Below, in pieces: positions 1 through 12,250 of a stretch of DNA of 12,250 bases. Position numbers and translations under genes: made by a program. The stretch comes from Janthinobacterium lividum (GTDB taxonomy: Bacteria; Pseudomonadota; Gammaproteobacteria; Steroidobacterales; Steroidobacteraceae): the NCBI GenBank assembly GCA_943327025.2, contig CALPVO020000038.1, positions 1-12,250 of the forward strand, written 5' to 3'. How positions within the stretch are numbered: the first letter of the stretch is position 1; every line of letters starts with the position of its first letter. A model generated the notes under the pieces. It was not told where the DNA came from. It did no database searches and saw nothing but the letters and a program-made list of their open reading frames with translations.

Positions 1-578
1 ATCCGGTGGAAGAAATGCGCCGACAGATGGTGCGCATGCGGGAAATCGTTGACAGCTTGCTGGAGCTATCCAGATTGGAAGCGGCCAATGGTGAAGCGCC
101 TTTCGAAGCGGTCGACGTGGCCGGGTTGGTGGCGCTGCTGCGGCGCGATGTCATGTCGGCGCAGGCCCACCCAGCGGTATTCGAAGTGGATATCCAGTCG
201 CCAGCTAGGGTGCTGGGTGCGCCGGGTGAAATACATTCCATCATTGCCAATCTCATCAGCAACGCGGTGAAGTACACACCGGAGAGCGGTACGGTGGCCG
301 TGAGTTGGCGCGTGGATGCGAACGGTGGTCACTTCGCCGTAACCGATACCGGAATCGGTATCGGCAGTGAACATTTGCCGCGGTTGACTGAACGTTTTTA
401 CCGTGTCGATGCGGGCCGTTCCCGCAAGCAAGGTGGCACGGGTCTGGGTCTGGCCATCGTCAAGCATGCGGTACATCGCCACGGTGGCACGCTATCCATA
501 GAAAGCGTGGAGGGCAAAGGAAGCACCTTCAGTTGCCACTTCCCTGCGCGCCGTGTGCCGGCAACTACTGCTTCCTGA
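1..578 (+). CDS. phoR: Phosphate regulon sensor histidine kinase PhoR, C-terminal part (5' end outside window)
   Basis: Inner-membrane sensor kinase that phosphorylates PhoB when phosphate is low. Only the C-terminal ~190 residues are present and the frame is open from the window edge. The visible protein begins in the second helix of the dimerisation domain (RMREIVDSLLELSRLEA), so the phospho-accepting histidine lies upstream. The ATPase domain is complete: N box IANLISNAVKYTP (about 243-281), G1 box TDTGIGIG (about 345-368), F box ERFYRVD, and G2 box GGTGLGLAIVKHAVHRHGG. The domain alone identifies only a histidine kinase. The PhoR call rests on resemblance of the SRLE and NAVKYTP segments to PhoR and on the surrounding Pho genes (porin, two phoU, pstSCAB). 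phoB is presumably just upstream. The stop is followed after one base by a PhoB box for the next operon. Confidence 0.85.
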   Translation, partial: PVEEMRRQMVRMREIVDSLLELSRLEAANGEAPFEAVDVAGLVALLRRDVMSAQAHPAVFEVDIQSPARVLGAPGEIHSIIANLISNAVKYTPESGTVAVSWRVDANGGHFAVTDTGIGIGSEHLPRLTERFYRVDAGRSRKQGGTGLGLAIVKHAVHRHGGTLSIESVEGKGSTFSCHFPARRVPATTAS

Positions 579-596
579 CTGTCACCATTCTTTCAC
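579..596 (+). promoter_or_regulatory. PhoB box upstream of the plcP-glycosyltransferase pair
   Basis: Two direct 7-base repeats, CTGTCAC and CTTTCAC, are separated by CATT, giving the 11-base period of PhoB boxes (consensus CTGTCAT-N4-CTGTCAC). A weaker third repeat, CTGCTTC, lies in register 11 bases upstream at 568-574, inside the last codons of phoR. No convincing -10 hexamer is seen at the expected place (about 607-612). Of the three boxes in this window, this is the only one without one. Confidence 0.8.
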
Positions 597-688
597 GGAA
601 GCGCAACGTTTCCGTCGCCCCACCTTCATCGTGCTGAAAGCCTTGTCCGCCACCATTGGCGAATGGTGTTTGTTCGCGAGGTGGCACG

Positions 689-1492
689 ATGCGGATCCGT
701 ACGCTATTCCTGTCTGACATCCACTTGGGTTATCGCGGTTGCCGCGCTGGCGCTTTGCTGGACTTCCTCGGTCGCTACCAGCCCGACGAGATCATCCTCG
801 TCGGTGACGTGGTGGATCTTTGGTCGCTCCGCCGTACTCCCTATTGGCCTGCAGAGCATCAGGCAGTCGTACGACGGTTCGTTCAGTTGGCCGCTTCCGG
901 CGTGCGCGTTATCTACGTGCCCGGAAACCATGACGAAGCGATTCGTGAATGGGTGGGTGCCAGCCTGGCCGGAGTCGAGATTCGTCAGGAACATCACCAT
1001 GTGCTCGCCGATGGCCGCCGTTTCCTGGTGATGCACGGCGATGCCTTTGATGACGCGGTCCGTATTCCCGGTTGGCTGTCTGGACTCGGTAGCTTCCTTT
1101 ACGATTGCATTCTCGCTTTGTCCCACCATGTGTACGGCCTGCGTCGGCGCCTGTTTCGTGGTGCGCGCTGGTTTTCGCTCGCGACCTGGATCAAGCGGCG
1201 AGTGCCGGAGGCCATGCGTTACGTACGCAAGTTCGAGAATGCGGCGGTGCAGGAGGCCAAGCGGCGTGGCTTCGACGGCATCATCTGTGGGCACATCCAC
1301 CACCCTGCGCTGCAGGAACGCGATGGCATTTGCTACGTGAATGATGGCGATTGGGTGGAGCATGGCACCGCGGTGTTCGAACATCTCGATGGTCATCTGG
1401 AACTCCATTGGGCCGATGAAGCGCCAGCAGTTCAGCCTGCCCCTCGTCTGGCTCCCGCCATGCCGGTTGCCGCCCTGCGCAAGGTGGCTTGA
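689..1492 (+). CDS. plcP: Calcineurin-type phosphoesterase, probable PlcP-like phospholipase C (LpxH superfamily)
   Basis: Metallophosphoesterase of 267 aa. All metal-binding motifs are present in order: SDIHLG (D10, H12), VGDVVD (D40), PGNHDE (N80, H81), MHGD (H116) and GHIHH (H202, H204). Automatic annotation would call it UDP-2,3-diacylglucosamine diphosphatase. However, segments such as LRRTPYWPAEHQAVV, the long insert at about 125-180 and the ending YVNDGDWVEHGTAVFEH match, from memory, the Sinorhizobium PlcP family. That family cleaves phospholipid head groups to give diacylglycerol under phosphate starvation. A PhoB box upstream and a lipid-type GT4 gene 8 bases downstream support this reading. 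ATG at 689 is chosen because GAGG lies 7 bases before it and the fold begins there; an earlier in-frame TTG at 656 adds unsupported residues. The last ~20 residues are an Ala/Pro-rich tail. No signal peptide is seen. Confidence 0.72.
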   Translation: MRIRTLFLSDIHLGYRGCRAGALLDFLGRYQPDEIILVGDVVDLWSLRRTPYWPAEHQAVVRRFVQLAASGVRVIYVPGNHDEAIREWVGASLAGVEIRQEHHHVLADGRRFLVMHGDAFDDAVRIPGWLSGLGSFLYDCILALSHHVYGLRRRLFRGARWFSLATWIKRRVPEAMRYVRKFENAAVQEAKRRGFDGIICGHIHHPALQERDGICYVNDGDWVEHGTAVFEHLDGHLELHWADEAPAVQPAPRLAPAMPVAALRKVA

Positions 1493-1500
1493 GGCTCTCC

Positions 1501-2580
1501 ATGCGACTGACTATCGTCACTGACGCGTGGGCGCCGCAGGTCAACGGGGTGGTGACGACCTTGACGCGGACCGTGCTGGGCCTGCAGGCGCTGGGTGTTG
1601 ACGTGGAGGTCATTACTCCGCAGGGGTTCGCATCGATCCCCTGTCCCAGTTACCCGGAAATCCGTCTGGCTATTTTTCCAGGGGCCGAGGTCCAGCGACG
1701 TCTGCTGGCGAACGACCCAGATGCGGTGCATATCGCCACCGAGGGGCCGCTCGGCATGGCGGCGCGGCGGTACTGTCTCGACCAAGGATGGCAATTCTCG
1801 ACCTCCTACCACACCCGTTTCCCGGAGTACCTCAGCGCACGCTGGCCGCTTCCGGAGGAGTGGACCTATGCCTGGCTCCGGCGCTTCCACGGGGCTGCCG
1901 CCAGGACCATGGTTGGCACCCCATCGATGCGTCGTGAACTCGCCGCGCGCGGTTTCAAACACCTCGTGGAGTGGACTCGCGGCGTGGACGCCGAGTTGTT
2001 CCAGCCCATGGCACCGCTACGCCAATTGCCTTGGGGCCGGGAACGCACGGAGCGGCCGGTGCTGATGTATGTCGGTCGGGTCGCCGTCGAAAAGAATATT
2101 GCAGCGTTTCTCGACTTGCCGTACGCCGCCGACAAGGTCGTGGTGGGCGACGGTCCGGCGTTGGCCGCGTTACGTCAGGCGCACCCCGAGGTCGTCTGGA
2201 CGGGTTTTCTCGCTGGCGACAGCCTCGCCAGAACGGTGGCGCAGGCCGACTGCGTGGTGTTTCCCAGCCGGACGGATACCTTCGGCTTGGTGATGCTGGA
2301 ATCCATGGCCTGCGGCGTCCCAGTGGCCGCGTTTCCGGTGACGGGGCCTTGCGATGTCGTCACCCCGGGCGTTACCGGAGAACTGCATGAGGATTTGGCG
2401 ATGGCGGTGCGTGGGGCGCTCCGCTTGGACCGGCATGGGGTAGCGGCAGCGGTGGTGGGGCGTCAGTGGTCGGCAGCGACGGCGCAGTTTTTAGGCCATT
2501 TGGTGCCGACGCGTGAAGCGCGAGTCGAGCGAATGCTGGGCGCCATCCACAGTAGGCGGTTGCACGAGCAGGTGCAGTGA
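1501..2580 (+). CDS. GT4 family glycosyltransferase, possibly a diacylglycerol glycosyltransferase (Agt-like)
   Basis: Retaining GT-B glycosyltransferase of 359 aa. The N-terminal acceptor domain has TDAWAPQVNGVV (7-18) and the HTRFPEY segment (104-110). The C-terminal nucleotide-sugar domain has YVGRVAVEKNI (190-200, with R193 and K198) and SRTDTFGLVMLESMACGVPV (256-275). The second glutamate of the EX7E motif is E267, and the first position is Asp (D259). The overall pattern is that of the subfamily usually annotated as alpha-mannosyltransferase or Agt-like. ATG at 1501 has GAGG 6 bases upstream and lies 8 bases after the plcP stop, so the two are almost certainly co-transcribed. Next to a PlcP-like enzyme and under a PhoB box, the likely acceptor is diacylglycerol and the product a glycolipid. 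Sugar donor and acceptor cannot be read from the sequence. A mannoside or lipopolysaccharide role remains possible. Confidence 0.75.
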   Translation: MRLTIVTDAWAPQVNGVVTTLTRTVLGLQALGVDVEVITPQGFASIPCPSYPEIRLAIFPGAEVQRRLLANDPDAVHIATEGPLGMAARRYCLDQGWQFSTSYHTRFPEYLSARWPLPEEWTYAWLRRFHGAAARTMVGTPSMRRELAARGFKHLVEWTRGVDAELFQPMAPLRQLPWGRERTERPVLMYVGRVAVEKNIAAFLDLPYAADKVVVGDGPALAALRQAHPEVVWTGFLAGDSLARTVAQADCVVFPSRTDTFGLVMLESMACGVPVAAFPVTGPCDVVTPGVTGELHEDLAMAVRGALRLDRHGVAAAVVGRQWSAATAQFLGHLVPTREARVERMLGAIHSRRLHEQVQ

Positions 2581-2633
2581 CGAACGGCAGCGTGACCCTC
2601 GCTTGCGGGTAGTCCTCTGAAGATGTCGGAAAG

Positions 2634-2651
2634 ATGAAGCTTCCGTGACAG
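2634..2651 (-). promoter_or_regulatory. Weak reverse-oriented PhoB-like box
   Basis: On the - strand this reads CTGTCAC-GGAA-GCTTCAT. The first repeat is a perfect PhoB heptamer; the second matches only at its TCAT end. It lies 12 bases upstream of the forward box of the porin promoter. No gene reads leftward from here, so if bound it would act as an accessory site. Confidence 0.25.
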
Positions 2652-2663
2652 AGCGAATGAGCC

Positions 2664-2697
2664 CTGCCATTAAACTGTCACAAACAGCCCGTATAAC
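2664..2697 (+). promoter_or_regulatory. Pho promoter of the porin gene: PhoB box plus -10
   Basis: The PhoB box is CTGCCAT-TAAA-CTGTCAC (2664-2681), close to consensus and with an AT-rich spacer. Exactly 10 bases later is TATAAC (2692-2697), the correct place for the -10 of a PhoB-activated promoter with no -35. Transcription should start near 2704. A further single CTGTCAC lies in the leader at 2727-2733, without a partner at 11-base spacing. Confidence 0.85.
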
Positions 2698-2752
2698 GTG
2701 ATTACCGCCTAGATAGCGGACTTTTTCTGTCACATTCGCGGGAGTCGTTGTT

Positions 2753-4159
2753 TTGAAAACGTCTTGTCTGTCGGTCGCCGTGGCGACCATTCTGGTTTCG
2801 GGGCTAGCCCCGTCTGTGTCCATGGCCGCCGGGAAAGTTCCGGCCAAGGTCGTCGCCCCCGTAGTGCCGGCGGCTTCCGCGAGCGACCTCGACGCCCTGC
2901 GCGCTGAATTCGCCTCTTTGCGTGATCGTATCGACCGTCTGGAAGCCGCCAACACGCAGCTCGCGGCGGAGAACGCTGAATTGAAGAGTGCGTCGACCGA
3001 CGCCGAGCCGGTAGTCGACTACATCAAGGCCCAGATTAGGGAGCAGCGTGAAGATACCGCCAAGCTCCAGGCAGATGCCGAGAAGGTTCGCGGCGCCGAC
3101 TGGGCTTCGAAGATGAAGTGGAAGGTGGACCTGCGTTACCGCATGGAAACCATCGAAGGCGACACCGTGCCGAAGCGCCAGCGTGACCGTATCCGCTTGC
3201 GTGCGGGCCTGGAAGCGAAGGCTACCGACAACCTACTGGTGGTGGCGCAGTTGGCTACGGGCGGCACCGACCCCCGCTCCAGCAACCAGACTTTGTCCGG
3301 TCAGTTCGATCGCGAATCCATTGGCGTGGACCTCGCGTATGTTGAGTGGACCGTCGCCATGGGCATGAAACTGACCGGCGGCAAGATGAAGAACCCGTTG
3401 GTTCGCCCCGCCGACCTGTTCTGGGACAACGACCTGAACCCGGAAGGGCTGTCGTTCGCTTTCGAGCGCGGCCCCTGGTTCGGCAGCGCCAACTACTTCT
3501 ACCTGACGGAACGGTCGGGTAGCTCCACCGCTGGTGCCACCTTCGCCACCAAGGGCTCGGAGTCCACCGCGACGGTGGGTCAGCTCGGCTATCGCCTGCC
3601 GGTGGGCGAGATGTCCATGCTGACGCTCGCCGCCAACTACATGGACCTCGGCGCTGGTAAGGGCCGCTGTGACCTGTTCGGTAACACTGGCAATGGCAAC
3701 ACCACGGTGGCGTTCACCACGGCGCCGTGTTCGGGCACCAACAATGCTTCGCTGGCCTATGACTACAAGATCAGCGGGTTCCAGGCGCAGTACGACACCA
3801 TGTTCGGCCTACTGCCGTTCAGCGCCTTCGGCGAATACGCCAAGAACGACGGTGCCAAGAACGGCCTCGATACCGCGTACGCCTTTGGCGCCTCGCTGGG
3901 TAAGGCTGCCAATGCCAAGTCTTGGGAAGTTAGCTACCTATACCAGTCGATCGACAAGGACGCGCTGTTTGGCATGTTCACGGACTCCGACTTCGCCGAT
4001 GGCAGGACCGACGGCAAGGGCAGCGTGTTCAAGTTTGGCTATGCACCGGTGAAGAACTGGACGGTGAACGCCACGTACTTCATGAACAAGCGCAACTTCA
4101 ACAGCGCCACGCAGTTGGACTACAAGCGCCTGCAGCTCGACTTCAACGTCAAGTACTGA
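2753..4159 (+). CDS. Pho-regulated outer-membrane porin with N-terminal coiled coil (Porin_5 / putative porin family)
   Basis: Outer-membrane beta-barrel of 468 aa, probably the phosphate or anion entry channel of this locus. A signal peptide fits residues 1-25 (cut near SMA-AGK). An Ala/Pro/Val linker is followed by a heptad coiled coil at about 44-80 (LDALRAEFASLRDRI...), as in trimeric porins with periplasmic coiled coils. The barrel starts near residue 120 (MKWKVDLRYRME) and ends in LQLDFNVKY with a terminal aromatic. Blocks such as RIRLRAGLEAKATDNL, QLATGGTDPRSSNQTL and WDNDLNPEGLSF resemble the 'putative porin' family rather than OprO/OprP. The start is TTG at 2753: GGGAG lies 8 bases upstream and the signal peptide begins exactly there. 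Its own Pho promoter precedes it and a strong terminator follows. The mature chain has only two cysteines (306 and 326). Phosphate selectivity is inferred from regulation alone. Confidence 0.82.
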   Translation: MKTSCLSVAVATILVSGLAPSVSMAAGKVPAKVVAPVVPAASASDLDALRAEFASLRDRIDRLEAANTQLAAENAELKSASTDAEPVVDYIKAQIREQREDTAKLQADAEKVRGADWASKMKWKVDLRYRMETIEGDTVPKRQRDRIRLRAGLEAKATDNLLVVAQLATGGTDPRSSNQTLSGQFDRESIGVDLAYVEWTVAMGMKLTGGKMKNPLVRPADLFWDNDLNPEGLSFAFERGPWFGSANYFYLTERSGSSTAGATFATKGSESTATVGQLGYRLPVGEMSMLTLAANYMDLGAGKGRCDLFGNTGNGNTTVAFTTAPCSGTNNASLAYDYKISGFQAQYDTMFGLLPFSAFGEYAKNDGAKNGLDTAYAFGASLGKAANAKSWEVSYLYQSIDKDALFGMFTDSDFADGRTDGKGSVFKFGYAPVKNWTVNATYFMNKRNFNSATQLDYKRLQLDFNVKY

Positions 4160-4160
4160 G

Positions 4161-4197
4161 GCAACGGCCGGGCAGGGCGCCCAGGGAGGGGCGTTGC
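4161..4197. repeat. GC-rich imperfect palindrome with GCAACG/CGTTGC arms
   Basis: Inverted arms GCAACG (4161-4166) and CGTTGC (4192-4197) enclose a GC-rich core containing the palindrome GGGCGCCC (4175-4182). It sits directly after the porin stop and before the main terminator. The same arms recur after dsbB at 5583-5640. Confidence 0.5.
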
Positions 4198-4209
4198 TGT
4201 AGCCGAGGG

Positions 4210-4237
4210 GGCCACGGGAAACCGTGGCCTTTCCTTT
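4210..4237 (+). terminator. Rho-independent terminator of the porin gene
   Basis: A perfect 8-bp stem, GGCCACGG (4210-4217) with CCGTGGCC (4222-4229), closes a GAAA tetraloop. A T-rich tail (4230-4237, TTTCCTTT) follows. It isolates the porin transcript from phoU. Confidence 0.85.
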
Positions 4238-4295
4238 AAGTAGGGCAGCGTGACGGCCCGGCATTGCCGTGACGACGCCAGCGTGCCTTGGAGGC

Positions 4296-4324
4296 TTGCG
4301 GCGAAGGCTGCGGTTCTGTATATC
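4296..4324 (+). promoter_or_regulatory. Possible sigma-70 promoter of phoU-dsbB
   Basis: TTGCGG (4296-4301) and TATATC (4319-4324) are 17 bases apart. The predicted start near 4331 leaves a short leader with GAGGAG at 4334-4339, 5 bases before the phoU ATG. No PhoB box is visible in 4238-4344, so expression may be constitutive. The -35 is a poor match. Confidence 0.4.
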
Positions 4325-4344
4325 AAGGGAATTGAGGAGAGAGC

Positions 4345-5082
4345 ATGGACACTTCAGACCTTTCGCACCATATTTCCAGCCGGTTCAACGAAGAGCTCGA
4401 GCGCGTTCGCAGCAAGGTGCTGCGCATGGGCGGTCTCGTCGAGGAACAACTTCAGCAGGCGGTTCGCGCCTTGGTGGAGGCAGACAGCAACCTCGGTGAG
4501 CAGGTGGCACGCCGGGACGTAGAGGTAAACGCCCTCGAGGTGTCCATCGACGAGGACTGCAGCCGCATTCTGGCTACCCGCAGCCCCGCCGCTTCGGACC
4601 TGCGCCTCATCGTCGCTATCATCAAGACCATCACCGACCTCGAACGCATTGGCGACGAGGCCGAAAAAATTGGCTATATCGCTTCGCGTCTGGCCACCAT
4701 GGAGCGGCCTACAGACCGCTACCGCGAAATCAAAAACATGGGCCGTTTGGTGCAGGACCTAGTCCATGGCGCACTGGATGCCTTCGCCCGTGCCGATGCT
4801 GAAGCGGCGCTGAAGATTGCCCGCGGCGACAAGGTGGTCGACGAAGAGTACGAGGCCATTCAGCGCCAGTGCATCACCTTCATGATGGAAGACCCGCGCA
4901 CCATTCGCCGCGCCCTCGATGTGCTGTGGGTTACCCGGGCGCTGGAACGCATTGGCGATCACGCCAAGAACATCTGTGAATACGTGGTCTACATGGCGCA
5001 CGGCAAGGATATCCGCCACCTCTCCATCGACGACGCGGAGCGCGAACTGCAGGCCCGTACTTCCGGCGGTTCTGCTGCATGA
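4345..5082 (+). CDS. phoU: Phosphate signalling protein PhoU (first copy)
   Basis: Cytoplasmic regulator of 245 aa that links PstSCAB to PhoR and restrains the Pho response when phosphate is plentiful. The two three-helix repeats of the family are present. Each carries the metal-binding ExxxD motif: LERIGDEAEKI (E100, D104) and LERIGDHAKNI (E201, D205). The start HHISSRFNEELERVRSKVLRMGGLVE is typical of the family. ATG 4345 has GAGGAG 5 bases upstream. This copy lies outside the pst operon, has its own probable promoter, and is translationally coupled to dsbB (ATGA overlap). It is closer to canonical PhoU than the second copy at 10932. Which of the two acts on PhoR cannot be told from sequence. 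Confidence 0.95.
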   Translation: MDTSDLSHHISSRFNEELERVRSKVLRMGGLVEEQLQQAVRALVEADSNLGEQVARRDVEVNALEVSIDEDCSRILATRSPAASDLRLIVAIIKTITDLERIGDEAEKIGYIASRLATMERPTDRYREIKNMGRLVQDLVHGALDAFARADAEAALKIARGDKVVDEEYEAIQRQCITFMMEDPRTIRRALDVLWVTRALERIGDHAKNICEYVVYMAHGKDIRHLSIDDAERELQARTSGGSAA

Positions 5083-5582
5083 CCCTCCCGGGGCGTCGTT
5101 CGCTGAACCTGCTGGCGGCCGCGTTCTGCGCGGTGCTCGTCGGCTATGCGCTGTACCAACAGCATGTCATGCACCTGGAGCCGTGCCACCTGTGCATCTT
5201 TCAGCGGGTGGCTGTCATGGCGGTGGGTGCGGTGTTTCTGGCCGCCGGCCTGCACCATCCGGGGCGCCTCGGTGCGCGTCTCTACGGCGTGCTGGGCGCG
5301 CTGGCGGCCGCTGGTGGCCTGGCGGTAGCCGGGCGCCATGTCTGGATTCAACTGCAGCCACCGGGCAGCGTGCCGGCTTGTGGCGCGCCGCTGGATGTCC
5401 TGTTCGACGTGCTGCCGTTTCAGGAAGTGGTGCTCAAGGTGTTCCGCGGTGGCGGTGAATGCCAGAAGGTGGACTGGACCTTCCTCGGCCTGAGCATGCC
5501 CATGTGGTTGCTGGCCGTGTTCGCCGGGCTGCTGCTGTGGGCGCTCTGGGTGAACTTCCGCCGCGAGCCCGCGGCGGGTTAA
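5079..5582 (+). CDS. dsbB: Disulfide bond formation protein DsbB
   Basis: Inner-membrane quinone reductase that reoxidises periplasmic DsbA. The 167-aa protein has four hydrophobic segments (about 10-29, 43-59, 68-84, 140-158). Both redox cysteine pairs are visible: EPCHLC (C36, C39) in the first periplasmic loop, followed by FQR with the conserved Arg (R42), and C101/C128 in the long second loop (PACGAPLDVLFD ... GGGEC). This is the full set expected of DsbB. Its ATG overlaps the phoU stop by 4 bases, so it is probably translated by coupling with phoU; no separate promoter or strong ribosome site is needed. Transcription ends against the convergent dapE. Confidence 0.95.
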   Translation: MTLPGRRSLNLLAAAFCAVLVGYALYQQHVMHLEPCHLCIFQRVAVMAVGAVFLAAGLHHPGRLGARLYGVLGALAAAGGLAVAGRHVWIQLQPPGSVPACGAPLDVLFDVLPFQEVVLKVFRGGGECQKVDWTFLGLSMPMWLLAVFAGLLLWALWVNFRREPAAG

Positions 5583-5640
5583 AGCAACGCCCGTCAGGCG
5601 TCTGAGGCAGTCGCTGGGGCCCGTTGGCCCCGCCGTTGCT
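5583..5640. terminator. Bidirectional stem-loop between convergent dsbB and dapE
   Basis: An inner hairpin GGGGCC-CGTT-GGCCCC (5616-5631) sits inside outer arms AGCAACG (5583-5589) and CGTTGCT (5634-5640). It fills the 59-base gap between two convergent stop codons. T-tracts are poor on both sides (only CTTTAA on the - strand), so it may end transcripts inefficiently or protect 3' ends. Confidence 0.5.
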
Positions 5641-5641
5641 C

Positions 5642-6787
5642 TCAGGCCGCCGGCAACAATCGTTCGAACATCCCCACATAGGTGCGGTGCAGGGCATCTA
5701 CGTCCGCCACGCTGACGCATTCGTTCACTTTGTGGATGGTGCGGTTCACCACGCCCAATTCCAGCACCTGCGCGCCCATCGGCGCAATGAACCTGCCATC
5801 GCTGGTGCCACCGCCGGTGGACAGGCGCGGGCGGTTCCCGGTTTCCGCTTCGATGGCGGCAGCCGCCGCTTCCGACAGTTGGCCCGGGGCCGTAAAGAAC
5901 GGGAAGCCGGAAACAAACCACTCCAGCGAATACTTCACGCCGTGGCGGTCGAGAATGGTGGTGACCGTTTTTTGCAGGCCCTCCAGCGTCTGAGCGGGGG
6001 ACCAACGCAGATTGAAGCGGGCTTTCAACTCGCCGGGAATGACATTCGGTGCGCCCGTACCAGCGGTGAGGTTGGAAATCTGGAAGGTGGTCGGCTGGAA
6101 AAACTCGTCGCCCCCGTCCCAAACGCGGGTGGAGAGTTCCGCTAGGGCCGGCGCAAAGGCATGTACCGGGTTGTCTGCCAGCTGCGGGTAGGCCACATGG
6201 CCCTGGATGCCGTGGACCGTGAGCCGGCCGGAGAGGCTGCCGCGGCGACCATTCTTGATGACGTCGCCGAACCGTTGTTCGCTGGAGGGCTCGCCGACGA
6301 GGCACCAGTCGATGGTTTCGCCGCGTTCCTTCAGCCATTCGACCACACGACGGGTGCCGTCGACGCTGGGGCCTTCCTCGTCGCTGGTGACGAGCCAAGC
6401 GATACGGCCCTGGTGGCGGGGGCGGGCGGCGAGGAATGCCTCGATGGCGGTGAGCATGGCGGCAAGGCCACTTTTCATGTCGGCCGCGCCGCGGCCGTAC
6501 AGCAGGCCGTCGCGAATGGTGGGCTCGAACGGGTCGCTGTGCCATTCCTCGAGCGGACCGGTGGGCACCACGTCGGTGTGGCCGGCCAGACAGAGCGTGG
6601 GGCCGCTGCCGGCTACGCTGCCTTCCCGCGTGGCCCAGAAGTTGTCCACGGGCCCGAACCGGAGCCTTTCGACCTGAAATCCGAGCGCTTCGAGGCGGCG
6701 GATCAAGACGTCCTGGCAGCCTTCGTCCGCGGGGCTGACGGAGCGGCGGCGGAGCAGGTCTAAGGTCAGGTCTAGGGTGGCGGTCAC
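5642..6787 (-). CDS. dapE: Succinyl-diaminopimelate desuccinylase DapE
   Basis: Cytoplasmic di-zinc M20 peptidase-family enzyme that hydrolyses N-succinyl-LL-diaminopimelate to LL-diaminopimelate and succinate, in lysine and cell-wall precursor synthesis. The 381-aa length is normal. Metal and catalytic residues match the Haemophilus enzyme with a constant shift of three: H70 and D72 ([10 protein letters not shown]), D103 ([10 protein letters not shown]), E137 and E138 (TSDEEGP), E166 (VGEPSS) and H352 (NRTIHKVNE). The dimerisation lid domain is at about 180-290. The start codon is GTG at 6787, with GGGAG about 11 bases upstream. A good sigma-70 promoter precedes it. It is divergent from pstS and convergent with dsbB, and its pathway partner dapD lies on the same strand at the right end of the window. 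Confidence 0.96.
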
Positions 6788-6834
6788 TGGATTGGTTTCT
6801 CCCGCAGAACCGGTGGGGCAAAAAGGGTGCGCGA

Positions 6835-6863
6835 TTTATAGGGCCCGTGGCCTGTCAAGTCAA
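6835..6863 (-). promoter_or_regulatory. Sigma-70 promoter of dapE
   Basis: On the - strand, TTGACT (6863-6858) and TATAAA (6840-6835) are separated by 17 bases, five of six matches in each hexamer. Transcription would start near 6828, giving a leader of about 40 bases before the GTG. Confidence 0.75.
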
Positions 6864-6886
6864 CGCCGAGGGGGCGGAATCTCTAT

Positions 6887-6904
6887 ATTTCAGAAAAATG
6901 ACAG
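6887..6904 (-). promoter_or_regulatory. Reverse-oriented PhoB-like box in the dapE-pstS region
   Basis: On the - strand this reads CTGTCAT-TTTT-CTGAAAT: a perfect first heptamer, an AT-rich spacer and a degenerate second repeat in the correct 11-base register. No -10 lies 10 bases beyond it. It is 13 bases upstream of the forward pstS box and 23 bases upstream of the dapE -35. Confidence 0.5.
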
Positions 6905-6917
6905 CCTTGGTGCCGGT

Positions 6918-6951
6918 GTGTCACACAACTGAAAGAATCCGGAGACACAAT
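6918..6951 (+). promoter_or_regulatory. Pho promoter of the pst operon: PhoB box plus -10
   Basis: The box is GTGTCAC-ACAA-CTGAAAG (6918-6935), with a strong first and weak second repeat. CACAAT (6946-6951, four of six to TATAAT) follows after 10 bases, the same spacing as in the porin promoter. Transcription would start near 6958. GGAG at 6975-6978 is the pstS ribosome site. Confidence 0.65.
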
Positions 6952-6985
6952 AGCGCGGTCAGAACCTACTTCCTGGAGCAGTTAC

Positions 6986-7981
6986 ATGAAGCTTTGGCAG
7001 CGCACCCTCGCAGCCGCAACCCTTGTCGGTGCGGCGTCCGCGTTCGCCCCGCAGGCGGCGGTGGCCCAGCAGATCAAGATTGACGGTTCGAGCACGGTGT
7101 TTCCCATCATGGAAGCCGTGGCCGAGGAATTCCAAATTTCCAAGCGCGGCAAGGTCCGCGTTACGGTTGGCATCGCCGGTACGGGCGGTGGCTTCAAGAA
7201 GTTCTGCCGTGGCGAAACCGACATCTCGAACGCCTCGCGTCCCATCCTCGCCGAGGAAATCGACGCCTGCAAGGCGGCTGGCGTCAAGTACATCGAATTG
7301 CCGGTGGCCTTCGATGCGCTGACGGTCGTTATCAACCCGAAGAACACTTGGGCCAAGACGCTGACGGTGGCCGAGCTCAAGAAAGTCTGGGAGCCGGCCG
7401 CGCAGGGTCGCATTACGCGTTGGAGCCAGATTCGTGCCGGTTTCCCGAACCAGCCCATCCAGCTGTTCGGTCCTGGCGCCGATAGCGGCACCTTCGACTA
7501 CTTCACGGAAGCCATCAACGGCAAGTCGAAGCTGACGCGTGGTGACTACACCGCCTCCGAGGACGACAACACGCTCGTCCAGGGCGTAGAGAACAACGTC
7601 AATGCGCTTGGTTACTTCGGTTACGCGTACTATGTGAACCACAAGGACAAGATGACCGCCGTAGCCGTGAACAACGGCAAGGCGTCTGTTCTGCCCTCTA
7701 ACGAAAATGTCATCAATGGCACTTACAATCCCCTGTCACGCCCGCTGTTCATTTACGTGCGGGTGTCTTCTGCAGCACGTCCTGAAGTGGCGGAACTGAT
7801 CAAGTTCATCCTCACCAAGGGCGCGCCGCTGGTCAATGAAGTGGGTTACGTGGCCCTGCCGCCATCCGCCTACGCCATTGCCCAAAAGCACTTCGACGCC
7901 CGCCGCACCGGCAGCGTGTTCGGTGGCAAGCCGGAGGTGGGTATCACCATCCAGCAACTGCTCAGCCGCGACGCGAAGTAA
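6986..7981 (+). CDS. pstS: Periplasmic phosphate-binding protein PstS
   Basis: Binds phosphate in the periplasm and delivers it to the PstCA channel. The 331-aa precursor has a signal peptide with cleavage likely after AVA27. Ligand-loop motifs are IDGSSTVFP (32-40), AGTGGGFKKFCRGETDISNASRPI (64-87) and FGPGADSGTFDYF (161-173). These are the Ser/Thr/Arg/Asp contacts typical of the PstS_2 (TIGR02136-like) group rather than the Escherichia coli type. Two cysteines, C74 and C95, are the only ones in the mature chain and probably form a disulfide. ATG 6986 has GGAG 7 bases upstream. It is the first gene of pstSCAB-phoU, behind a PhoB box, and is separated from pstC by a block of stem-loops. Confidence 0.96.
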   Translation: MKLWQRTLAAATLVGAASAFAPQAAVAQQIKIDGSSTVFPIMEAVAEEFQISKRGKVRVTVGIAGTGGGFKKFCRGETDISNASRPILAEEIDACKAAGVKYIELPVAFDALTVVINPKNTWAKTLTVAELKKVWEPAAQGRITRWSQIRAGFPNQPIQLFGPGADSGTFDYFTEAINGKSKLTRGDYTASEDDNTLVQGVENNVNALGYFGYAYYVNHKDKMTAVAVNNGKASVLPSNENVINGTYNPLSRPLFIYVRVSSAARPEVAELIKFILTKGAPLVNEVGYVALPPSAYAIAQKHFDARRTGSVFGGKPEVGITIQQLLSRDAK

Positions 7982-7988
7982 GCAGTTA

Positions 7989-8096
7989 GCCAACCCCGCG
8001 GTGGGGCCCTGGCTGGAGTGCTACCAGCCGGGGGTTGGCGAGAGGAATGCGCGTCGGTAAAGTGCCGACCCGGGCCCGGGGGGAAACCTCCGGGCC
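7989..8096 (+). terminator. Three consecutive stem-loops between pstS and pstC (attenuator or RNA processing element)
   Basis: (1) GCCAACCCC (7989-7997) pairs with GGGGTTGGC (8031-8039), enclosing a second stem GGCTGG (8011-8016) / CCAGCC (8024-8029). (2) GTCGG (8053-8057) pairs with CCGAC (8065-8069). (3) GGCCCGGGGG (8073-8082) pairs with CCTCCGGGCC (8087-8096) around a GAAA tetraloop, ten pairs including one G-U. After the last stem comes only TTGTGTG, so termination is probably partial. This would leave pstS mRNA more abundant than pstCAB. Confidence 0.7.
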
Positions 8097-8126
8097 TTGT
8101 GTGCGGAAAGGAATGGGGAATTTTGC

Positions 8127-9071
8127 ATGAACGAGCCCAAGCGCCCGATGCCCGCGGGTCCAGCCATTTCGGTCGGTATGTTCGCTTCGTTGCGCTACCG
8201 CAAAGCGCGCGATCGCGTCGTCGAGGCGCTGCTTTTGGCTTCCGGCATGGTGGCGGTGTTCATCACTTTGGCCATCGTCGTCATCCTCGTCTCTGAATCT
8301 GCCGTCTTCTTCGAGCATGTCACGCTCAAGGAATTCCTGACGGACCCGTTGTGGACGCCGCTGTTTGCCGATGCCCACTACGGCATCATGCCCTTGGTGG
8401 CCGGTACGCTGACCACCACTTTCGTGGCGCTGGCTGTCGCCATTCCTTTTGGCACCACCATCGCCATTTATCTCAGCGAGTTCGCGCCACACAAGGTGCG
8501 CGAGTCGCTCAAGCCAGTGCTCGAATTGCTCGGTGCCGTGCCCACCGTGGTCTACGGCTATTTCGCGCTGTTGGTGGTCACACCGCTGTTGCAGAAACTG
8601 CTGCCGGAATTGCCCGGGTTCAACATGCTGGGTGCCGGCATCGTCATGGGTCTGATGATCGTGCCGTTCGTGGCGTCGGTTAGTGAAGACGCCATGCGTT
8701 CCGTACCGGTTTACATGCGCGAGGGTAGCTACGCCATGGGCGCCACGCGCCTGCAGACTGCCCTGCGAGTGGTGGTGCCGGGCGCGTTTTCGGGCATCGC
8801 CGCGGCCTACATTCTGGGAATTTCCCGCGCCGTCGGCGAGACGATGGTAGTGTCCATCGCAGCCGGTATGCAGCCGAACCTCACTTTTGACCCCACCCAG
8901 CCGGCGGCCACCATCACGGCCTACATCGTACAGGTGAGCCTCGGTGACTTGCCCCATGGCAGCATTGGTTACCAGACCATCTTCGCTGCAGGTCTGGTGC
9001 TCATGATCATCACCTTGCTGTTCAATGTCGCCGGGTTCTTCCTCACCCGCAAGTTCCGGGAAGCTTACTGA
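8127..9071 (+). CDS. pstC: Phosphate ABC transporter permease PstC
   Basis: Inner-membrane channel subunit of the high-affinity phosphate importer, 314 aa, with about six hydrophobic segments (the first at about 34-58). The ABC-permease coupling loop is at about 187-225 (EDAMRSVPVYMREGSYAMGATRL...), where it contacts PstB. The conserved ELLGAVPTVVYG (133-144) and SRAVGETM (233-240) segments are diagnostic. ATG 8127 is chosen: GGGGA lies 7 bases upstream and the protein then starts with a normal hydrophilic N-terminus. An upstream in-frame TTG at 8097 would start inside the last base pairs region of the attenuator stem-loop and is unlikely. The stop overlaps the pstA start by one base (TGATG). 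Confidence 0.95.
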   Translation: MNEPKRPMPAGPAISVGMFASLRYRKARDRVVEALLLASGMVAVFITLAIVVILVSESAVFFEHVTLKEFLTDPLWTPLFADAHYGIMPLVAGTLTTTFVALAVAIPFGTTIAIYLSEFAPHKVRESLKPVLELLGAVPTVVYGYFALLVVTPLLQKLLPELPGFNMLGAGIVMGLMIVPFVASVSEDAMRSVPVYMREGSYAMGATRLQTALRVVVPGAFSGIAAAYILGISRAVGETMVVSIAAGMQPNLTFDPTQPAATITAYIVQVSLGDLPHGSIGYQTIFAAGLVLMIITLLFNVAGFFLTRKFREAY

Positions 9072-10009
9072 TGGCCACGCCAGCCCTGCCGTCGAACGAT
9101 CTGCAAACCGTCCGCCGCGACGTTGCCAGCCGCAAGGTTCGCGACCAGTTGTTTGTGGTCGTCGGTTTGCTCGCTTTGTTCGCCTGTCTGTTTTCCCTGC
9201 TCGTGCTGTTTAGCAAGCTGGTCATGGACGGCTCAGACCGTTTCACCTGGGAGTTCGTCAGCTCCTTCCCGTCGCGGCGTGCCGCGCAAGCCGGCATCCT
9301 CGCGGCTTGGGTGGGGTCGTCGCTCGTGATGCTGGTGACGGCTTGTACGGCGGTTCCAGTGGGGGTGATGGCCGCCATCTACCTCGAGGAATATGCCCCG
9401 AAGAACTGGTTCACGGGTGTTATTGAAATCAACGTGACCAATCTGGCCGGCGTGCCCTCTATTGTCTACGGCTTGCTAGCCCTGGGTCTTTTTGTCTACA
9501 AATTCGATCTTGGGCAAAGCATCGTCACTGCCGGCCTCACGCTGGCCCTGCTGATTTTGCCGGTGGTCATCGTCGCCACGCGCGAGTCGTTGCGCAGTGT
9601 GCCGCGCGCTATTCGCGAAGCAGCCTATGGGCTTGGAGCTACGCGCTGGGAAGTGACGAAGGACCATGTGTTGCCCTACAGCACTGGTGGCATCCTCACC
9701 GGCATGATTCTCGGCCTGTCGCGCGCCATCGGTGAGACGGCACCGCTCATCACCATTGGTGCGCTGGCCTTCATTGCCTTCTTGCCCACGCCGCCCCTCA
9801 CGGATGTCGCGCCGTATATCAGCTTCACCTGGCTGACGGACCCCTTCACCGTCATGCCCATCCAGATGTTCAACTGGGTGTCCCGTCCCGACCCGGCGTT
9901 CCAATCGAACGCGGCGGCAGCCGGTGCCATCCTGCTGGGCATGACCTTGCTCATGAACGCGGTGGCTATCTATATTCGCTATCGCTTCCGCAAGTCGATT
10001 AATTGGTGA
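9071..10009 (+). CDS. pstA: Phosphate ABC transporter permease PstA
   Basis: Second channel subunit, 312 aa, partner of PstC. Hydrophobic segments begin at about 27-50, and the rest of the six-helix permease domain starts near 78. The coupling loop is [24 protein letters not shown] (about 171-194), followed by [10 protein letters not shown] (217-226), the PstA signature segment. [14 protein letters not shown] (121-134) mirrors the PstC segment, as expected for homologous subunits. The ATG at 9071 shares one base with the pstC stop, implying coupled translation. The C-terminus [12 protein letters not shown] is normal. Confidence 0.95.
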
Positions 10010-10065
10010 TGGGCCCTGACTCATCGTCTTCGGTCCATCCTCCTACTTCACTCAGGTTTGAACCC

Positions 10066-10932
10066 ATGGAAACCACCATGAGCACCGCTGCTGATTCCGC
10101 AACCACTGGTGGCCACGAAGTGCCGCGTATCTCCATCAACATGGACGGTCACCGCGAAACCGCACCACGCAATGCGGCCAAGGCCCGTGCGGAGGCGCTC
10201 AGCTTTCATTACGGCGCCCACCGCGCGCTCAAGGACATCAATCTGGAAATCCCCGAGCGCATGGTGACCGCGCTCATCGGGCCTTCGGGTTGCGGCAAGA
10301 GCACGTTCCTGCGCTGCTTTAACCGTATGCACGACCTGACGCCCAATACGCGTTATGACGGTGCCATCCACTTCTACCCGGATGACTTCAACCTCGTGGC
10401 GAAGGACGTGGACCCCATCGAGGTGCGTATGCGCATCGGTATGGTGTTCCAGAAACCGAACCCGTTCCCGAAGAGCATCTTTGAGAACGTGGCCTATGGC
10501 TTGCGCCTGCGCGGTGTGAGCAATCGTGCTTTGTTGGAAGAGCAGGTGGAAGCCGCGCTGCGTAGTGCTGCCCTGTGGGAAGAAGCGAAAGACCGCTTGC
10601 AGGCTTCGGCATTGACGCTTTCGGGCGGTCAGCAGCAGCGTCTTTGCATTGCCCGTGCGCTCGCCACGCGCCCGGAGATATTGCTGTTCGACGAACCCAC
10701 CTCCGCGCTGGACCCCATCGCCACGGCGAAGATTGAGGAGCTCATCGCGCAGTTGCGGGACCAGGTGACGGTGCTGATTGTGACTCACAACATGCAGCAG
10801 GCCGCACGCGTCTCCGACTTCACGGCCTTCATGTATCTGGGCGAACTCGTTGAAGTGGGCGATACCAGCCGTATCTTCACGAATCCCTCGAAGAAGGCCA
10901 CCGAGGACTACATCACCGGCCGTTACGGCTGA
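10066..10932 (+). CDS. pstB: Phosphate ABC transporter ATPase PstB
   Basis: ATPase that powers PstCA, 288 aa from this start. Motifs: Walker [10 protein letters not shown] (72-80), Q-loop [18 protein letters not shown] (Q129), signature LSGGQ (186-190), Walker B ILLFDEP (D209, E210) and H-loop VTHNMQQ (H241). Phosphate-transporter hallmarks NRMHDL (86-91) and the C-terminal ITGRYG are present. The ABC domain begins near residue 43, so the first ~40 residues are a non-conserved extension. Start choice is uncertain. ATG 10066 has AGG 9 bases upstream; ATG 10078 has GGAAA 5 bases upstream; ATG 10009 would overlap the pstA stop but has no visible ribosome site. The pstA-pstB gap (10010-10065) shows no promoter or clear hairpin. 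Confidence 0.93.
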
Positions 10933-11675
10933 TGGTATTGCCTCAGCCGGCAGTCTCCCGCGAGGCGTCTGAATCGGCGTCGTTGTCGGGAACTGGCGGC
11001 ATGGCGGAAGCTGCTGCCACCGGCGAAGGTCATACTTCGCGCGTTTATGATCAGGCCATGCTGGGCCTGAGAATGCAGTTGCTCGAGATGGGTGGGTTGG
11101 TTCTTTCCCAAGTGGCTGGCGCGGTACGCGCCTTATTGACTACCGATACCACTCTCGCCCGCGACATCCTCGACCGCGAACAAGCCGTGAACGCTTACGC
11201 CGACCGCGTCGACCGGGCCGCCATGGCGCTCATTGCGCTACACCAACCAGTCGCTGGCGACTTGCGCACCGTTCGCGCCTTGACGCGGGCCGCGATAGAT
11301 CTGGAACGCGTTGGTGATGAGGCCAAGAAACTCGCTTACCTCGCCCGTGACATTGCTGCGGGCTCCCGCGTCACCTTATCCAATGGTGTGCGTCGTCCCT
11401 TGCGGGTGATGGGGCAGGCGGCGGCATCCATGCTTCACGATGCCGTCGATGCCTTGGACCGCATGAGTGCGGAATCGGCACAGGGAGTGCTCGCCCGCGA
11501 CGCCGAGTTGGACGCCGAGTTCAATGGGGCGCTGCGCCTCTTGGTCACGGAAGGCATGGAAGACCCGCGCTCTTTGGCTGGCATCGCCGATGCGGTGCTG
11601 GCGCTTAAAGCGATTGAGCGCATTGGCGACCATGCCAAGAATGTGGCCGAGCAGGTCGCCTTCATCGCGGGTTAG
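10932..11675 (+). CDS. phoU: Phosphate signalling protein PhoU (second, divergent copy)
   Basis: Last gene of the pst operon, 247 aa, its ATG sharing one base with the pstB stop. Both PhoU metal motifs are kept: LERVGDEAKKL (E125, D129) and IERIGDHAKNV (E229, D233). The PhoU fold starts near HTSRVYDQAMLGLRMQLLEMGGLV (34-57). Before it lies a ~33-residue Ser/Ala/Gly-rich stretch absent from the first copy. A start at ATG 11001 (M24) would remove most of this and cannot be excluded. The protein ends straight after the last helix and lacks the ~25-residue tail of the first copy. Its position with pstSCAB makes it the likelier direct partner of PstB and PhoR, as in the usual pstSCAB-phoU order. 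Confidence 0.93.
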   Translation: MVLPQPAVSREASESASLSGTGGMAEAAATGEGHTSRVYDQAMLGLRMQLLEMGGLVLSQVAGAVRALLTTDTTLARDILDREQAVNAYADRVDRAAMALIALHQPVAGDLRTVRALTRAAIDLERVGDEAKKLAYLARDIAAGSRVTLSNGVRRPLRVMGQAAASMLHDAVDALDRMSAESAQGVLARDAELDAEFNGALRLLVTEGMEDPRSLAGIADAVLALKAIERIGDHAKNVAEQVAFIAG

Positions 11676-11703
11676 TACCCGCAGCCGTAGCTGTCGTATT
11701 TGC

Positions 11704-12250
11704 TCAGTCGCGCAGCAGTTCGTTGATGCTCGTCTTAGCGCGCGTCTGTGCATCCACCCGCTTCACGATGACGGCCGCCGATAGCGAATACTTGCCGCAA
11801 GCGGAGGGCAGGGTGCCCGGCACCACGACCGCACCGGCCGGCACGCGGCCATAGCTGACCGTACCCGTCGCGCGGTCGTAGATTTTTGTGCTGGCGCCGA
11901 TGAACACGCCCATCGACAGCACGGCACCTTCTTCCACGACAACGCCTTCGACCACTTCCGAGCGCGCGCCGATGAAGCAGTTGTCTTCGATGATGGTCGG
12001 GCCGGCCTGCAAGGGCTCCAGCACGCCGCCAATGCCCACACCGCCCGAGAGGTGCACGTTCTTGCCGATCTGCGCGCAAGAGCCCACGGTGGCCCAAGTG
12101 TCCACCATGGTGCCGCTGTCCACATAGGCGCCGAGGTTCACGTAGCTGGGCATCAGCACCGTGCCAGGCGCGATGTACGCACCGCGCCGCGCGACGGCCG
12201 GCGGTACCACCCGCACGCCACCGGCGCGCAGTTGCTCCGGCGACTGGTTG
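11704..12250 (-). CDS. dapD: Tetrahydrodipicolinate N-succinyltransferase DapD, C-terminal part (5' end outside window)
   Basis: Transfers succinyl from succinyl-CoA to tetrahydrodipicolinate, two steps before DapE in lysine and diaminopimelate synthesis. About 181 C-terminal residues are present; the frame is open to the window edge ([10 protein letters not shown] before [11 protein letters not shown]), so the true start lies beyond 12250. The left-handed beta-helix of hexapeptide repeats is clear: [59 protein letters not shown]. The segments [14 protein letters not shown] and [14 protein letters not shown] are typical of DapD. Only 28 bases separate its stop from that of the convergent phoU, with no good terminator. 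Confidence 0.95.

Follow-up and report, generated by a model that had tools for sequence, protein, structure and literature searches.

The window, i.e. the whole stretch of 12,250 nucleotides analysed here (contig CALPVO020000038.1, positions 1 to 12,250), very probably carries a plcP-agt operon that is under PhoB control and remodels membrane lipids. This reading draws on the gene structure, the clade membership and catalytic residues of the encoded proteins, a separate lpxH in the same genome and a neighbourhood that recurs in relatives. Enzyme activities, products and PhoB control are transferred from characterised homologues. By this analogy, low phosphate would lead PhoR/PhoB to switch on plcP and agt. 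PlcP, a metal-dependent phospholipase C, would remove the phosphorylated head group from phosphatidylethanolamine and phosphatidylglycerol. To the diacylglycerol so formed, Agt would add glucose (possibly glucuronic acid) from a UDP-sugar. The phosphorus-free glycolipids would replace phospholipids, and phosphate would be recovered.

The features of the locus are given in Table 1. The phoR fragment covers positions 155-333 of the 333 of TIGR02966 with 226.9 bits; it stays under the cut-off of 334.2 for full-length proteins, as the window truncates the gene. The gap between phoR and plcP comprises 110 bp, that between plcP and agt 8 bases. The initial annotation had placed the locus at 579..2580, with a GT4 gene 8 bases after the phosphoesterase and the pair beside phoR; this is confirmed, coordinates included. 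An in-frame TTG is found upstream of plcP at 656, but the start is taken as ATG 689, because the close homologue P0003 starts at the residue matching this codon. Downstream of porin and phoU, the translations indicate dsbB-like, dapE-like, pstSCAB-like and second phoU-like ORFs. Two phoU genes are present within this one Pho cluster.

Table 1. Features of the phoR-plcP-agt locus and its downstream genes (positions in the window).
Feature	Position	Strand	Remarks
phoR, C-terminal part (gene runs off window start)	6..575, stop 576-578	+	TIGR02966 phoR_proteo; HATPase_c
Candidate Pho box CTGTCACCATTCTTTCAC (CTGTCAC and CTTTCAC, separated by CATT)	579..596	+	directly 3' of phoR stop
Second candidate PhoB-binding element, half-sites CCGTCGC, CCTTCAT, CTGAAAG	612..640	+	genus alignment
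Inverted repeat, arms CACCATT and AATGGTG around GGCG	651..668	+	between Pho boxes and plcP
plcP, metallophosphoesterase, predicted phospholipase C, 267 aa	689..1489, stop 1490-1492	+	
agt, predicted GT4 diacylglycerol glycosyltransferase, 359 aa	1501..2577, stop 2578-2580	+	
Porin Pho box CTGCCATTAAACTGTCAC	2664..2681	+	12/14 consensus match; TATAAC follows
Putative porin, next gene in Pho cluster	2753..4156	+	PF16930
First phoU	4345-5079	+	PF01895 (Pfam)
Second phoU-like gene	10932-11672	+	translation only

Reference proteins were taken from two records. In the Sinorhizobium meliloti record CP090106 the phosphoesterase gene is located close to genes for an acyl-homoserine-lactone synthase and for a regulator of the LuxR type, and in the Pseudomonas aeruginosa record CP075839 phosphoesterase and glycosyltransferase genes are located beside cyaB. 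We take the former neighbourhood to be that of SMc00171, presumably the gene number of S. meliloti PlcP, and the latter to be that of PA3219-PA3218. The P. aeruginosa record (CP075839.1, locus L046) is called a plasmid, yet possesses plcP-agt1 with flanking genes that we assume to be chromosomal in PAO1. The anchors, 46.3% identical to each other, were treated as PA3219 and SMc00171 orthologues on the basis of gene neighbourhood and this identity; for PA3219 and S. meliloti PlcP, 46% is reported (PMC8528852).

Mutants and enzymology support the PA3219-PA3218 plcP-agt operon of P. aeruginosa: plcP-agt1 has a Pho box in front of it, low phosphate raises the PlcP protein 4.6-fold, and the glucosyl-diacylglycerol made by Agt1 is lost upon deletion of agt1 or plcP (PMC8528852). 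In a methanotroph, deletion of plcP-agt abolishes the glucuronosyl lipid, with the glucosyl lipid kept (PMC9239053). A survey of plcP records the gene in Gammaproteobacteria, with agt more often next to it than any other gene among the isolates covered, and with Pho boxes in plcP clusters (PMC4796936). As these three papers already describe the system, the operon of the window is a sound but ordinary example of it. The initial annotation of the pair as a lipid-remodelling operon is thus supported by the PlcP clade, the separate lpxH and the Agt motifs, but its occurrence in a gammaproteobacterium is not a new inference, PA3219-PA3218 being a Pho-boxed plcP-agt pair as well (PMC8528852). The host is likely a gammaproteobacterium near Steroidobacteraceae: G022, of the same family, carries a protein that NCBI lists for a Steroidobacteraceae bacterium (P0022, which ends with the G022 translation), and NCBI assigns this family to Gammaproteobacteria. 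Our search for literature on glycolipids and phosphate starvation in Steroidobacteraceae returned no paper.

The P. aeruginosa operon resembles that of the window in its two genes, their order, the upstream Pho box and its gammaproteobacterial host; identities to the CP075839 pair are 44% (PlcP) and 50.6% (Agt). The flanks differ: the window pair lies between phoR and a Pho-boxed porin, and the CP075839 pair is flanked by cyaB on one side and, on the other, by a gene on the opposite strand for a helix-turn-helix regulator. P. aeruginosa furthermore possesses an additional Agt2 (PA0842). PlcP of S. meliloti shares clade, 44% identity and active-site residues (including the His discussed below) with the window protein, but has no agt adjacent in CP090106.

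The box directly behind phoR matches 11 of 14 positions of the consensus CTGTCATNNNNCTGTCAT, as quoted in PMC8528852. When the 110-bp gap was redrawn 5000 times from a first-order Markov model, 0.6% of the draws scored as high on the plus strand, and the whole window contains three sites at 11 or 12 on both strands, with about 0.64 expected (100 Markov draws). The "near-consensus PhoB box" of the initial annotation is therefore present and above chance, but not perfect, and the term is slightly generous. Its aligned place scores 10/14 in the same-genus genome G003 (L010) and only 8/14 in G001 (L011), yet PlcP of G001 is 93% identical to that of the window; the best Pho-box sites in the gap of G002 score 10. 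Another candidate element nearby consists of half-sites at 612, 623 and 634, spaced by 11 bp, which form a weaker match in the window (9/14 per pair) and are aligned in all four same-genus genomes (window, L010, L011, L012). Both 579-596 and 612-640 are candidate control sites for plcP, and by analogy with the characterised operons PhoB control of plcP is likely. Sigma-70-type promoters were not found in 500-2800 (0.4 expected); PhoB promoters often lack a -35 element.

In G001 the inverted repeat between the candidate boxes and plcP is still perfect over 7 bp despite two double (compensating) changes; G002 lacks it at this place. It is therefore probably a genuine element, which could serve as terminator of phoR, as operator or as leader structure. 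Hairpins at 648-668 are terminator-like by pattern, and four terminator-like sites were found in 500-2800 (2.2 expected). These hairpins in front of plcP, the poor box in G001 and the missing sigma-70-type promoter speak against the operon reading, as do the relatives without agt and the Thioclava insert described below. The best Pho box up to the porin is the porin's own, and together with the TATAAC it resembles a PhoB promoter that would put the porin under phosphate control.

Among 148 genomes searched for homologues, own genome included, 72 possess a match and 76 none; the matches in G006, G138 and G146 are weak (27-30% identity, under 50 bits) and need not be PlcP. From the 71 other genomes with a match, the 29 best loci (L010-L038) were inspected. 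Here, phoR is located upstream within about 0.7 kb in 11 loci, an agt-like glycosyltransferase gene is adjacent in 15 (L016 has just 24 residues of it where the contig stops, and in L032 it precedes plcP), and both are present in nine; the remaining 14 lack an agt-like gene within about 1.5 kb. The nine genomes with the order phoR-plcP-agt comprise two of the same genus and seven from four other genera (g14, g20, g23, g24). Of ten longer stretches, eight have matches to pstS, porin, phoU, dsbB or dapE in the vicinity.

In G002 (L081) and G082 (L086) phoR-plcP is kept without adjacent agt. G002, a 100% complete genome of the same genus, possesses phoR-plcP-porin, and a search of this genome for a close agt yielded none, with no glycosyltransferase above 62 bits. 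G013 and G032 have no agt beside plcP and carry close agt genes elsewhere. Neither btaA (PF11899) nor olsB (PF13444) was detected at E 0.001 in the four genus genomes; the controls of these searches gave matches in one and two genomes out of 14. In this lineage plcP might be the fixed member of the phoR-porin-phoU cluster and agt the variable one, missing from G002 and, next to plcP, from G082. With btaA and olsB undetected in the four genus genomes as well, PlcP of some members might then mainly serve phosphate salvage, or feed a still unknown phosphorus-free lipid via another enzyme. We consider this unlikely.

Several loci display further features. In L037 and L038 an ORF with response-regulator and winged-helix domains is located just upstream of plcP; in L037 its best match is PhoB, below the cut-off (226 vs 296 bits), and L024 contains an ORF with the same DNA-binding domain. 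For L021 and L040, a PAP2-family phosphatase gene follows plcP in one relative, and a similar-looking ORF adjoins the second GT4 gene of the window's genome (C30), perhaps as another diacylglycerol-handling pair. L008 (CALQLF020000106.1) is titled Candidatus Planktophila lacus, which we take to be an actinobacterium. Five of its proteins are 91-99% identical to those of the proteobacterial window cluster, so the title is probably wrong.

For the remodelling operon of the window, the second gene is predicted from its motifs to be agt. The diacylglycerol GT4 group is marked by GRVAxEKN, FPSxTDTFG and a His104/Asp256 pair, with 46-58% identity inside the group and under 25% to other GT4 (PMC8231724). 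The window protein possesses GRVAVEKN (192), FPSRTDTFG (254) and SYHTRF with His at 104, i.e. both motifs and the His/Asp pair, and its 50.6% identity to the P. aeruginosa Agt1-type (PA3218-type) protein falls in the range reported inside the group. Compared by published motifs (PMC8231724), Agt/GTcp of Agrobacterium and Candidatus Pelagibacter HTCC7211 share GRVAxEKN, FPSxTDTFG and the His104/Asp pair with it. Among 14 plcP-adjacent glycosyltransferases of relatives, GRVAxEKN or GRLAxEKN is present in five and FPSxTDTFG in 13; the P. aeruginosa Agt1-type protein carries FPSLTDTYG in place of the latter.

The second GT4 of the genome (C30) was considered as a candidate Agt2 equivalent; besides GRVAHEKN it has TETQG, not TDTFG, in the second motif, is 30% identical to the window protein and falls into a separate group on a long branch. 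In the glycosyltransferase tree many deep forks are open (14 of 30), and nothing is drawn from L058 (a wrong-frame 101-residue piece on a very long branch) and the truncated L075, which were kept.

GT4 is a very large family, and PlcP could act as described next to a GT4 enzyme with a target other than diacylglycerol, e.g. a polysaccharide or another lipid. This is quite improbable given the FPSRTDTFG motif with the Agt-group Asp, as opposed to TETQG in C30 (GRVAxEKN being common to both), the identity to the Agt1-type protein, and the position of the gene adjoining plcP in Pseudomonas, Roseomonas, Sphingomonas and Methylobacterium records, even if close relatives of the window protein are found away from plcP too, its best solved-structure match reaches only 1.1e-8, and most names among the 120 homologues listed are general ones such as 'glycosyltransferase involved in cell wall biosynthesis' (four are 1,2-diacylglycerol 3-alpha-glucosyltransferase/glucuronosyltransferase). 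With diacylglycerol as acceptor, one would first expect glucosyl-diacylglycerol as product, as the nearest characterised relative takes UDP-glucose only (PMC8528852). All four genus genomes searched contain the nucleotide-sugar dehydrogenase family TIGR03026, which makes UDP-GlcA plausible. By analogy, the product is likely glucosyl- and possibly glucuronosyl-diacylglycerol.

The first gene of the operon is assigned from its sequence to the PlcP clade of metallophosphoesterases, not to LpxH. Both protein types are alike in fold and in the seven metal ligands (D-H, D, N, H, H-H), all of which align between the window protein and P. aeruginosa LpxH 5b49 (active-site positions taken from the LpxH structure paper), in agreement with the calcineurin-type motifs noticed initially. 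They differ in model score, Arg80 and insert composition. The window protein obtains 40.9 bits on the LpxH model TIGR01854, with an equivalog cut-off of 190.35. The position of LpxH Arg80, a diagnostic residue described as confined to LpxH (PMC5016852), is occupied by His in the window protein and by Arg in the genome's own LpxH and 5b49; in the tree alignment, all 39 PlcP-type rows have GNHD, and all six rows of LpxH have GNRD. The P. aeruginosa paralogue LpxH2 has an aromatic-rich insert and is judged to have another substrate (PMC5016852), which fits the insert of the window protein with 14.6% F/W/Y, vs 3.9-5.2% in six LpxH. Over the 39 PlcP-type rows the content ranges from 5.1% (Thioclava, as aromatic-poor as LpxH) to 18.8%, the second lowest value being 10.0%.

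A phylogeny with LpxH and PlcP references, as the initial annotation had proposed, contains 45 rows and splits the 39 PlcP-type from the six LpxH rows with 100/100 support, the PlcP side comprising the window protein and the S. meliloti and P. aeruginosa PlcP-type proteins. Four of the six LpxH rows are from the window's genus, long branches lead to Thioclava, Parabacteroides (both very long), one solved LpxH and L021, and L064 starts at a non-Met residue (composition warning). LpxH is also the outgroup of the PlcP tree in PMC9239053. A separate lpxH, whose presence had likewise been put forward as a check, is located on another contig of the 75% complete genome (G000:C41, 269.3 bits on TIGR01854). 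The same-genus genomes G001-G003 each possess one lpxH over the cut-off and a plcP far below it. PF00149 occurs in four places in the window's genome: the window gene, lpxH (C41), an ApaH-like ORF (C81) and a long 5'-nucleotidase-like ORF (C51), the latter two named from translations, not model matches.

The predicted structure of the window phosphoesterase (pLDDT 88.5) has LpxH as its two best fold matches among solved structures, and sequence comparison with solved chains gave four matches, each of them LpxH. As no PlcP was found among the structures matched by sequence or fold, this proximity says little and is as expected for a sister family. The mislabelling foreseen in the initial annotation is evident from the source-given homologue names, every one of which, among the 120 listed of 3151 matches, reads UDP-2,3-diacylglucosamine (di/pyro)phosphatase. 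A second UDP-2,3-diacylglucosamine hydrolase for lipid A synthesis, to which these names and the LpxH structure matches would point, is very improbable in view of 41 bits against a cut-off of 190, the His in place of Arg80, the 100/100 separation from LpxH, the separate lpxH and the phosphate-regulon neighbourhood.

What the window contributes beyond the known plcP-agt systems is a further lineage, the linkage with phoR and the finding that some relatives lack agt. It also illustrates a systematic database error, PlcP being named as the lipid A enzyme LpxH, which affects annotation-based counts of lipid A synthesis and lipid remodelling. With the predicted operon, a phosphate-saving pathway proven by experiment elsewhere would reach a lineage near Steroidobacteraceae that has been little studied, and where it is built into the phoR cluster.
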